From Planktomarina sp. (GTDB lineage Bacteria; Pseudomonadota; Alphaproteobacteria; Rhodobacterales; Rhodobacteraceae): a stretch of 64,000 nt of DNA. The notes under the pieces were generated by a model. That model was given only the letters and a program-made list of their open reading frames with translations. It had not been told where the DNA came from and did not search any database. Position numbers and translations under genes: made by a program. Shown here one piece after another: positions 4,217-8,534 of the stretch (position 1 is its first letter; the number at the start of each line of letters is the position of its first letter). Where the stretch lies: the NCBI GenBank assembly GCA_020630595.1, contig JAHDBC010000009.1, positions 1 through 64,000 on the forward strand. Reading direction: 5' to 3'.

Positions 4217-5254
4217 ATGGTGGTTCAGGCCATGACGCATGACATGAAGCAGGACGCACAACCCCTTTTGGATGCGTTGAACGATTGCGGTGACGCGCAA
4301 ACCGCTGATGCTTTGGAACAGTCATTGGATTGTGGCGATTTGACTGCGGCGCGCGATCTGTTGGATCACCGCATCCGGCTGACGTATCACAACCCCGACG
4401 GGATCGCGCCACAGGTTGAAATTCAGCCACAAGACGCAGAAACACCGACGCGCGGCGGATTTCAAAACCTTGCGTTTCGACTGTTCGCATCCTTGGAAAA
4501 CGCTTTGCGGCGGCGGCAGTTTGCAACGATGCTGGACACCCACCCCGGCCGCCCGGCCGTGTTGGCCGAAGGCGACAGCTGGTTTTGTTTTCCCATTATC
4601 GCGCCCCTTGATGTTGCGCAGGCCATGGCCAACCATTTGCCGGTGTATCCCGTCGCCGCGCCCGGTCAGTCCTTTCCCGATTACCTGTCTGACAGCCAGC
4701 TGGCCGAAACCATTGCGGCGCTGAACAGCTATCCGATTTCCGATATTGCGCTGTCGGGGGGTGGGAACGAAATGATGGGGGATTATTTCAAAGACCATCT
4801 TTTGCCCTTTGACGGGCAGTCCAGCGCCCGTGATTTTCTGAATTGGGACACTGTGCATCCGACCATAGATGGGCTGGCCCGGCAGGTGGCGCGCTACGGC
4901 GAAACGCTGCAAAACAGCACGGACCGCCCGTTGCGCTTCTACAGCCACAGCTACGCGGTGCCATTTTTGTTCGGAACAGGCAGTTGGCTGTCCAAGGATC
5001 TGGAGGCCGCGCAAATCCCGACGCGGTATTGGACCGAAATCTGCGCGTTGATTGTGGCGACATATTCCGCACGATTGACCGCGCTGGAACTGGAATTGGA
5101 CAATTATCGGTTCATTGATCTGCGCCCCTTTGGCCGGCCCGATGCCCATGCGTGGCACGACGAAGTGCATTTGTCAGACGCAGCGGCAAAGGCGGCGGGT
5201 GCCCATTTTGCCCGCCGGATCATGGCCGCCCAACCAAACCTGCAGGTGTCGTGA
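4217..5254 (+). CDS. SGNH/GDSL-type hydrolase-like protein
   Basis: 345 residues. The C-terminal two thirds carries the SGNH blocks: AEGDSWF with the catalytic Ser at 121 (block I), GGGNE at 181-185 (block III-like, Asn/Glu in place of GxND) and DEVHLS with Asp315 and His318 (block V). Such enzymes are esterases, lipases or acyl hydrolases. The first ~85 residues form a hydrophilic alpha-helical region unlike known SGNH N-termini, with no signal peptide, so a cytoplasmic location is likely. The exact start is uncertain (ATGs at 4217, 4232 and 4244; none has a strong ribosome site). The stop overlaps the start of the next gene (TGATG), implying translational coupling and a shared role. Confidence 0.75.
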   Translation: MVVQAMTHDMKQDAQPLLDALNDCGDAQTADALEQSLDCGDLTAARDLLDHRIRLTYHNPDGIAPQVEIQPQDAETPTRGGFQNLAFRLFASLENALRRRQFATMLDTHPGRPAVLAEGDSWFCFPIIAPLDVAQAMANHLPVYPVAAPGQSFPDYLSDSQLAETIAALNSYPISDIALSGGGNEMMGDYFKDHLLPFDGQSSARDFLNWDTVHPTIDGLARQVARYGETLQNSTDRPLRFYSHSYAVPFLFGTGSWLSKDLEAAQIPTRYWTEICALIVATYSARLTALELELDNYRFIDLRPFGRPDAHAWHDEVHLSDAAAKAAGAHFARRIMAAQPNLQVS

Positions 5255-6822
5255 TGGCGCCCCCGTTGCCCTTGTCTGCCCCGACATTCGAACAGGTGGC
5301 GTTTCGATTGTATCAGGCGGTGATTGACCCTGCCCATCTGGCAGACCTGATACTTGTGCTGGGCAGTTGGCTGTCCGAAAACGATGAACCCTTTGCCCGG
5401 CTTGAAATCGAAAAATATTCCGAAGTGGCCCTGCGCAGCCTTGAAGATCAGGCACCGCTGATCCGACCACAAGAGGGGCAGCCAGCCGATTTCAAGTTTG
5501 ACGCCGACCTGTCCATCGCCGACCAGATTGGGCTGATCGAACAGAACCGGGCGATTGATCTGCATCCTGATGATCGGTCCCGGATCATCGCATCCTATCA
5601 CGCAACCCCCGGGCCGATGATTTTTCGGTATTTTGTGTCGGACCGTGAATCGGCCAATCTGGGAACCGCCCGCCCCAGCGACACCCAGCCAGACCAGACG
5701 GAATGGTTTTTGGAAACAAACATTCTAACGGGTGCGATGCGCCATTTGTTGGAACGCGACTTTGGGATCACGCCTGCCGAAATGCGGGTTTTGGCCCACG
5801 CACTGGATGGATTTCGCGCAACTGAAATTGCAGCGGCACTGGGCAAATCACCCGAAACCATTCGCAGCCAATTAAAGGCGCTGGCTGCGAAAGTGTCCGC
5901 TGATGGGCAACCCAAACTGATCGCAAATATTCACGGTCTGGCGACCCATATTCCGCAAGACGAACCACACAAGATGCGCACCAGACAGCCCGAACAGGAC
6001 ACCCCCCTGCACGATGGATCGGTTGCCCTTTTTGTGCATTGCGCCTTGCACGGCCCGCATCTGCCGGCCCGGTTTCTGACCACCGCGCGCAAGGCACAGA
6101 TTTCCATTCTGGCCCCATCACGGCCCGGTTATGGAACGACCCCGCTTGATCCGGCGATCAAGGCGCAGGGGTTTGACGGTCTGGCACATTTTTATGCGGC
6201 CTACCTGAAATCAAAGAACGTCTCCCAGGTGTCTGTACTGACCCACGGCACGGGGCTTGCGTCTGCGTATCGTCTTGCGGTGCTGTACCCCGAAATCGTG
6301 GTGCGGCTGGTGGGGCTGGATTGCGTGCCACCTGCAACCGGGTTTCAGACAATCTTTGGCTTCAAGGGGCATTTTCGGTCCGTGGGGCTGGCCATGCACA
6401 GCGCCCCAAAGACATTCGATCTGTTGGGCAAATTGACCCTGAAACGCCTGCAGGGGTTCAAAACAGGGACAAAACCGTACCGCCGCCACATTCTGTATCC
6501 CGATGTGCCCTTGGCCACGTTGGAATCACCCGATGGGCTGAAGGCCATGCAAGCCAATGCCGAAGATTTGGTGGCACAGGATCTGGCTGGATGCCTGCAC
6601 GAATCAAAACTGTACGGCACGCCGTGGGATCAGCTGGAGGCTGGCACAAACGTCACGCCGAACTGCCATCTGTTGTCGACAGAAGAAAACCCGTTGATCA
6701 GCGACAAACTGTCAGCCCAACTGGCCGGTCAGATCAACGCACGCCACGAACATTTCGGGGCGACCTTTCCGTTCCTGTTGGCCCAGACTGACAGGATTTT
6801 GAACCTTTTGCGCGTCAGTTAG
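5254..6822 (+). CDS. LuxR-type HTH protein fused to a degenerate alpha/beta hydrolase
   Basis: 522 residues. An unassigned N-terminal region (about 1-165) is followed by a LuxR/GerE-type helix-turn-helix at about 172-214 (ITPAEMRVLAHALDGF, then ATEIAAALGKSPETIRSQLKAL). An alpha/beta-hydrolase fold covers about 255-520, with a strand before SRPGYG and an elbow at T330-H-G-T-G334. In active enzymes this elbow is G-x-S-x-G; here the nucleophile position is Gly332, so catalysis by Ser is not possible, although a late HEHF segment could hold the usual His. The start overlaps the SGNH gene stop (TGATG). The likely role is DNA-binding regulation by a ligand held in the dead hydrolase pocket (inference). 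The longer frame from 5152 lies over the SGNH gene and is rejected. Confidence 0.75.
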   Translation: MAPPLPLSAPTFEQVAFRLYQAVIDPAHLADLILVLGSWLSENDEPFARLEIEKYSEVALRSLEDQAPLIRPQEGQPADFKFDADLSIADQIGLIEQNRAIDLHPDDRSRIIASYHATPGPMIFRYFVSDRESANLGTARPSDTQPDQTEWFLETNILTGAMRHLLERDFGITPAEMRVLAHALDGFRATEIAAALGKSPETIRSQLKALAAKVSADGQPKLIANIHGLATHIPQDEPHKMRTRQPEQDTPLHDGSVALFVHCALHGPHLPARFLTTARKAQISILAPSRPGYGTTPLDPAIKAQGFDGLAHFYAAYLKSKNVSQVSVLTHGTGLASAYRLAVLYPEIVVRLVGLDCVPPATGFQTIFGFKGHFRSVGLAMHSAPKTFDLLGKLTLKRLQGFKTGTKPYRRHILYPDVPLATLESPDGLKAMQANAEDLVAQDLAGCLHESKLYGTPWDQLEAGTNVTPNCHLLSTEENPLISDKLSAQLAGQINARHEHFGATFPFLLAQTDRILNLLRVS

Positions 6823-7523: not shown

Positions 7524-7595
7524 CTGTCCGACGACCCTGTAAAATTTGAACCAAAGTTAAGACAAAGTTAGGCTTTGGCGGGTTTTGTACGACCC

Positions 7596-8534
7596 ATGCT
7601 ATCGTTTTTCTTTTTCCTATCGCTCGCCAGCGGCATGTTTGTCATCGACACGATTGTCGAAGAATTCATAGAACCCTCTGATGATGCGGACACCCCGCCC
7701 GATCAGCCGGATGATGATCCGGCATCCGACGATTCATCCGCCGACCGTGATGAACCCACAGCCACAGCCCCTGAAACCACACCCGATTTTGAAGAAGACG
7801 AAGATATCTATGATCCGTTGACGGAAACCGTTCCGTTTTACCGCAGCGGCGGGGATGACGGGTTCAATCTGGATCTGACCTTCGAAGGCGACTGGACGCT
7901 GGACGAACAGAACGCCGTCATCAAATGCGCAGAATTCATCAGCCAGGTTATCGTAGAAGACATTCCTGATGACAGCTATCGCGGGCAGGAAATAGATGAT
8001 GTGGCCATCACATTGTCGAAAGCCGACATCGACAGCTATTCGGGCATTCTGGCCTATGCGCAGGTCTATGATACGCGCAGCGACAGCGATTTGCCGACGC
8101 GGGCCGACATCGTGATGGACAACGCTGATCTGGAAGCACTGAAGCGGGGTGACGATTTTGAAAGCACGGTCCTGCACGAAATGTTTCACGCCATCGGCTT
8201 TGGAATCAAATGGGAACAACAGGGGTTGATTGACCGGTCCAACCCGGACGCCGGTGTGCGGTTCACGGGGGCCAATGCCACGCAGGCCTATCTGGACAGC
8301 CCGCTATCGGAAGATGATCCCTTTGCCGCATCCGGTGTGCCCGTCGATCCACGTGGCGGCCACTGGGACGAAGGCGCATTGGGGTCCGAATTCATGACCG
8401 GCATCCTGAACGCGAACAGCTTTGTGTCAGACATCACGCTCGCCTCACTGGATGACATGGGCTATGACACGGTCCGCGATGATGTGACCAAACCCAACGA
8501 CGCGATCGGCCCCGCCCCCACCATGTTCGTCTGA
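7596..8534 (+). CDS. Leishmanolysin-like (M8-type) zinc metalloprotease
   Basis: 312 residues from the ATG (an in-frame TTG at 7575 would add 7). A hydrophobic N-terminal helix (MLSFFFFLSLASGMFVIDTI) is followed by a very acidic, Asp/Pro-rich linker (about residues 25-85). The catalytic domain has HEMFHAIGFG (zinc ligands His194 and His198, Glu195 as base), a likely third ligand His256 in GGHWDEG, and a Met-turn at EFMTG (Met267). This order (HExxH, distant His, Met-turn, then LASLDDMGY) is typical of metzincins of the leishmanolysin type. It is probably a secreted or surface protease; the N-terminal helix resembles the short leaders seen on some Roseobacter exported calcium-binding proteins rather than a classical signal peptide. 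Confidence 0.8.
   Translation: MLSFFFFLSLASGMFVIDTIVEEFIEPSDDADTPPDQPDDDPASDDSSADRDEPTATAPETTPDFEEDEDIYDPLTETVPFYRSGGDDGFNLDLTFEGDWTLDEQNAVIKCAEFISQVIVEDIPDDSYRGQEIDDVAITLSKADIDSYSGILAYAQVYDTRSDSDLPTRADIVMDNADLEALKRGDDFESTVLHEMFHAIGFGIKWEQQGLIDRSNPDAGVRFTGANATQAYLDSPLSEDDPFAASGVPVDPRGGHWDEGALGSEFMTGILNANSFVSDITLASLDDMGYDTVRDDVTKPNDAIGPAPTMFV

Follow-up and report, generated by a model that had tools for sequence, protein, structure and literature searches.

A PAS-like/LuxR-HTH/α/β-hydrolase fusion protein in Planktomarina that appears to have lost its catalytic triad: a probable one-component regulator

The window, a 64,000-nucleotide stretch of a Planktomarina sp. contig, encodes a fusion protein of 522 aa (P0001; 5254..6822, + strand). 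Using Pfam, alignments and a family HMM, we divided it into a degenerate PAS-like segment, a LuxR-type helix–turn–helix (HTH) and a pseudo-α/β-hydrolase (ABH) domain. We consider it rather probable that P0001 is a one-component transcription regulator, in which the pocket of a dead ABH domain binds a ligand or partner and relays this event to the HTH. Alignments place P0001, as a divergent member, in a family of PAS-like/LuxR-HTH/ABH fusions. The open-access literature that we searched yielded no description of a LuxR-HTH/ABH fusion and, as far as that literature goes, the family is apparently undescribed.

Domains and catalytic positions of the fusion protein

The reading frame of P0001 runs through 522 codons without an internal stop, and its GC content by codon position (0.64/0.44/0.64) is of the coding type and similar to that of the neighbouring genes. 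The HTH occupies residues ≈ 172–229 (5767..5940, +). Pfam GerE matched residues 173–223 with an E value of 0.0013 and 18.7 bits, below the Pfam cut-off of 23.5 bits; the relatives L052 and L066 scored above it. The family-invariant HTH residues are kept in P0001 (E176, G186, I192, T202, Q206 and K213), and on the conserved E, G, I and T positions we assign the segment to the LuxR/GerE type. The ABH domain follows at residues ≈ 255–522 (6016..6819, +); its first strands are shorter than in the rest of the family. Here, Abhydrolase_6 matched residues 259–490 (E value 7.7e-5), slightly under its cut-off, and the same region of the relatives matched Abhydrolase_1 or Abhydrolase_6 at 1e-13 to 1e-16. 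The divergence of P0001 keeps both of its matches under the curated cut-offs. With a family HMM from which P0001 had been left out, the full-length protein scored an E value of 7e-51 and the ABH half by itself 7e-29 (at Z = 100,000). Since this profile still scored P0001 strongly, its membership of the family is independent of its own presence in the profile.

The N-terminal segment (residues ≈ 10–159; 5281..5730, +) aligns as the counterpart of the PAS-like input region of the relatives, in a degenerate and shortened form. The Pfam scan of P0001 returned no PAS match, and the N-terminal part alone reached just 15.9 bits with the P0001-free HMM. PAS_4 was above cut-off in the relative L049. 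The earlier note had described an HTH followed by a hydrolase fold; both domains are there, but the note had missed the PAS-like segment, barely detectable in P0001 and clear in the relatives alone. No autoinducer-binding domain was found in P0001 by the Pfam scan at E ≤ 1.

P0001 has the α/β-hydrolase core fold, although its own structure model is of low confidence (mean pLDDT 48.6), too weak to judge the pocket or a Ser near His498 or His500. The HTH was modelled as four helices with pLDDT mostly 65–82; Foldseek matches of this model were left out as evidence of relationship. The model of L198, a member of the sister clade described below, has a mean pLDDT of 53.5, with ≈ 70–85 for several elements of the ABH core; it shows PAS-like elements in a PAS-like order, an HTH of four helices and a core of ABH type. 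When this sister-clade model (mf8ad429b5774) was compared with ABH structures, the best match had a Z-score of 18.6 over 202 residues, with an rmsd of 3.6.

The former nucleophile elbow of the ABH domain reads L-T-H-G-T-G (residues 329–334; 6238..6255, +), with Gly332 in place of Ser. The absence of Ser had already been noted from the sequence of P0001, and it was borne out by alignment with dead and intact relatives alike: LTHGTGL aligns to LGHMAGS in the former and to GISGG or GHSAGG in the latter. The catalytic acid, Asp in 105 of 123 members, is replaced in P0001 by Asn479 (codon 6688..6690, +). The column of the catalytic His holds Phe in P0001, an assignment weakened by poor alignment of the C-terminus and by the nearness of His498 and His500. 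Judged by these alignments, nucleophile and acid are lost, loss of the His is likely and the triad as a whole appears to be gone. In the sister clade, the three positions are taken by Ala, by Ser or Asn, and by residues other than His. The earlier note had reckoned with homologues carrying a normal GxSxG and with a sequencing error in this copy. Such homologues exist, but a sequencing error does not account for the loss, since the sister clade, fetched from five other genomes, lacks the triad too; as its members share 55–68% mutual identity, the losses are old.

Spread of the family and residues at its former active site

Searching with P0001 as a single query, we found no close relatives among the genome contigs, and remote relatives in 7 other genomes of the 198 from the window's taxonomic family. 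Within the genus, P0001 was present in 1 of 20 genomes, and the 19 others had no relative of it. Because the remote relatives in the seven genomes share the whole architecture, we built a profile; one alignment (A1) was too diverged for a pattern scan. The profile located the fusion in 97 of the 394 genomes sampled from the taxonomic family (E ≤ 1e-40); it also finds it in further families of the class and in one family of the phylum outside the class. Plasmid records contained a single member, on a Tistrella plasmid, and phage records none. When 123 members were placed in an unrooted tree, a small sister clade joined P0001 with SH-aLRT 100, though the branch of P0001 itself is long (2.1). This clade consists of Rhodobacteraceae assemblies, including uncultured Roseicyclus and Halocynthiibacter, and its members are the nearest relatives of P0001, at 23–25% identity.

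Loss of catalytic residues is a feature of the family at large. Over the 123 rows, the nucleophile column contains G 51, M 16, L 12, S 12, A 8, D 8 and R 7 times, besides other residues, and 102 of the 123 members lack a Ser, Asp or Cys there. The His column is Gln in 79/123 rows and His in 13/123; all 13 His rows have a Ser (6) or Asp (7) nucleophile. A test of independent pairs for joint loss of nucleophile and His was not significant (7 pairs); as, in addition, the rows are related, the association describes a pattern and not a count of independent events. Gln replaces His in 46/55 rows of one dead group and in 26/31 of another, ranking 13 of 265 ABH columns in the 31-row group. The acid Asp is retained in 53/55 and 28/31 rows, respectively. 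An Asp two residues after the nucleophile position (a GxD elbow) is found in 55/55 rows of the first of these groups, a circular figure because the group was chosen by this same Asp; the figures for Gln and the acid Asp are not circular. Conservation of Gln and of the acid Asp at substituted sites suggests selection for a non-hydrolytic role. P0001 itself has neither of these two residues.

Members from one family outside the class keep S-D-H (L229, with GHSAGG...GHY, L230, L237 and L239). Since some relatives thus have an apparently intact triad, a history leading from enzyme-regulator to pseudoenzyme-regulator is likely; on the unrooted tree, its simplest form would be an enzymatic ancestor with later losses. 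The loci L228–L240 and L244, from the same family, run from intact S-D-H through partial losses and look like a natural enzyme-to-receptor series. A clade of 7 rows with Asp as nucleophile and His (D+H) is dehalogenase- or epoxide-hydrolase-like in appearance. Four D+H members of the family (L059:9345-10871, L062:5051-6490, L063:8701-10137 and L064:4788-6230) adjoin a gene for a secreted-looking VWA-domain protein.

Some gene neighbourhoods recur in the family. At about 15 loci (L114, L115, L118, L125, L126, L127, L132, L134–L137, L141 and L144–L146), the gene immediately before the fusion, in the same orientation, codes for an FAD-linked oxidase (FAD_binding_4 plus FAD-oxidase_C); in most cases ≈ 50–170 bases separate the two. 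The oxidase may hint at what the fusion proteins of that subclade bind or regulate. Part of the family (e.g. L118, L124, L125, L137 and L161) lies near recN-, bamD-, lpxC-, ftsZ- and lipB-like genes, names that were read by eye; this neighbourhood suggests vertical inheritance in that subclade.

The adjacent SGNH hydrolase gene

Upstream of the fusion gene lies a gene for a stand-alone SGNH-type hydrolase of 345 aa (P0002; 4217..5254, +). The protein itself gave no Pfam match, and its relatives match Lipase_GDSL_2. Aligned with nine relatives, it keeps Ser121 (in GDS), Asn184 (in GGGNE) and Asp315/His318 (in DEVH), and from the GDS Ser, the Asn block and the DxxH motif we class it as an SGNH/GDSL hydrolase. 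The stop codon of this gene (TGA, 5252-5254) overlaps the start codon of the fusion gene (ATG, 5254-5256) by one base, giving TGATG (5252..5256, +) and confirming an overlap pointed out in the earlier note. Translational coupling of the two genes is plausible and the SGNH hydrolase is probably co-expressed with P0001.

The earlier note had gone on to suggest that the SGNH enzyme makes or removes the ligand of the fusion protein. A survey of neighbourhoods did not support such a role as a conserved one: with an SGNH profile, none of 141 other distinct fusion-family loci, sister clade included, had a P0002-type SGNH gene nearby. These loci came from fetched sets of 120, 5 and 18, two of the five duplicating members of the 120; most were fetched with several kb on either side and some end at contig ends. 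The pair is known from this window only. Relatives of P0002 were found in 9 other genomes of the taxonomic family and in 18 plasmid records, and none in phages. In the nine genomes and most of the 18 plasmid records, they are modules of proteins that also contain Amidase_3 plus M15, caspase (C14) or trypsin-like domains; plasmid relatives occur with S8 peptidase and amidase annotations as well. Four sampled genomes contain both an SGNH relative and a fusion, on separate contigs or ≈ 200 kb apart. The pair of the window sits beyond nusG and a sulfotransferase gene, which are neighbours in some relatives of the genus too, and neither gene of the pair was present in the stretches fetched around nusG from these relatives.

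The company of the SGNH module in the caspase, amidase/M15, trypsin-like and S8 peptidase proteins (L010–L018; H2–H19) recalls effector or defence proteins, and L017 has, as read by eye, a DRGH nuclease-like motif after the protease. PADLOC gave no grounds for a defence system: P0001 matched CARF/CasR models only weakly, through its HTH, and the SGNH protein, for which PADLOC has no model, matched none. A parallel between the SGNH-protease fusions and MBL nuclease-protease defence pairs was considered and dropped; the paper on the latter mentions neither SGNH nor GDSL (PMC12799240). The ORF at 7575-8534, downstream of the fusion gene, has an acidic stretch in its N-terminal part and contains HEMFHAIGFG, a motif like that of zinc proteases.

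Interpretation and comparison with known systems

In the reading that we favour, the LuxR-type HTH of P0001 would bind DNA at target sites, as its fold suggests, and would be flanked by two inputs, the degenerate PAS-like N-terminus and the C-terminal ABH fold. Because the triad positions are lost, the ABH fold would no longer hydrolyse. The most likely occupant of its former active-site pocket is a small molecule or partner protein, whose binding would be passed on to the HTH. The architecture probably arose as an enzyme-regulator that became a pseudoenzyme sensor in a lineage spread through the window's taxonomic family. The view of P0001 as a receptor-like regulator, advanced at the outset from P0001 alone, is strengthened by this family-wide loss of triad residues. 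With the SGNH/fusion pair known only here, the SGNH enzyme can be credited with no more than a possible part in the making or removal of the signal. Against the favoured reading, the long branch, shortened ABH start and faint PAS region of P0001 may mean that the gene is decaying or that the pocket is gone, and in a protein modelled at so low a pLDDT another Ser near His498/His500 may be usable. The lack, in P0001, of the Gln and Asp conserved in the large dead clades also counts against it.

We regard it as improbable that the SGNH hydrolase and P0001 are a dedicated signalling pair, the one making or removing an acyl or ester ligand and the dead ABH domain of the other reading it. The shared strand, the one-base overlap and the intact SGNH residues fit such a pair, and with P0001 missing from the 19 other genomes of the genus and both genes from around nusG in the relatives, a joint arrival is possible. 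Yet this is a single example, unmatched at any of the 141 other family loci; the SGNH relatives belong to protease and amidase fusions at unrelated loci, and genomes that have both proteins keep them apart. Slightly better placed, but still unlikely, is that the ABH fold serves as a structural, dimerisation or protein-interaction module without a small-molecule ligand, the input coming from the PAS-like region or another partner. RsbQ, itself an ABH protein, directly contacts the PAS domain of RsbP (PMC3183031) and the shortened start of the ABH domain in P0001 points the same way, but in the dead clades the columns with Gln for His and with the acid Asp rank among the better conserved of the ABH domain, an indication that the pocket is in use across the family as a whole.

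That P0001 is a decaying gene of little function seems to us quite unlikely. It is an orphan in its genus, on a long branch, with its triad gone and strands shortened, and it lies in a segment that the relatives do not share beyond nusG and the sulfotransferase gene. The long uninterrupted frame with its coding GC profile, the conserved HTH residues and the one-base overlap with an apparently intact gene speak against decay, as does the sister clade, whose equally triad-less members indicate old losses. There is, finally, a very slight chance that the ABH domain of P0001 is still an enzyme with an unusual nucleophile or mechanism. The D+H clade indicates that some parts of the family may have kept or regained catalysis, but P0001 has Gly as nucleophile, Asn as acid and no aligned His.

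If the favoured reading is true, about a quarter of the sampled genomes in a bacterial family carry an uncharacterised transcription factor with a converted-enzyme sensor, and its ligand may be of a metabolite class so far unlinked to signalling. Within one architecture, the triad ranges from intact through partly lost to fully lost, which makes the change from enzyme to receptor traceable and testable.

P0001 has the LuxR-type HTH in common with LuxR solos and AHL receptors, but these have an N-terminal autoinducer-binding domain, whereas the sensor candidate of P0001 is C-terminal to the HTH. PAS-LuxR regulators generally end at the HTH; in P0001, by contrast, a full ABH domain comes after it and the PAS region is barely recognisable. 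CfaR of Streptomyces scabies is an example with PAS followed by a LuxR-type HTH (PMC4380410). In Bacillus subtilis and others, the ABH protein RsbQ and the PAS domain of RsbP form a bipartite sensor that drives varied outputs (PPM phosphatase, histidine kinase or diguanylate cyclase); RsbQ is a separate protein and needs its triad (PMC3183031). The likeness is that ABH and PAS jointly feed an output domain. The P0001 family, however, has PAS-like region, HTH and ABH in one chain, a LuxR HTH as output and a triad that is mostly lost. With its ABH domain fused and triad-less, P0001 thus lies, by its sequence, outside the RsbQP module and resembles it in working at most. The gibberellin receptor GID1, invoked as a precedent in the earlier note, is indeed a dead ABH receptor, but there the catalytic His became Val and Ser was not the residue lost (PMC10191409). 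The likeness is one of mechanism only, an ABH fold made a pure receptor through loss of a triad residue, and GID1 has no DNA-binding domain. Tentatively, but as a serious possibility, we propose that the family is a bacterial counterpart of GID1 wired to DNA: a large family of one-chain transcription factors that turned from enzyme-regulators into pure receptors by losing the ABH triad, acquired new conserved active-site residues (the GxD elbow and Gln for His) and would read metabolites in many Alphaproteobacteria.
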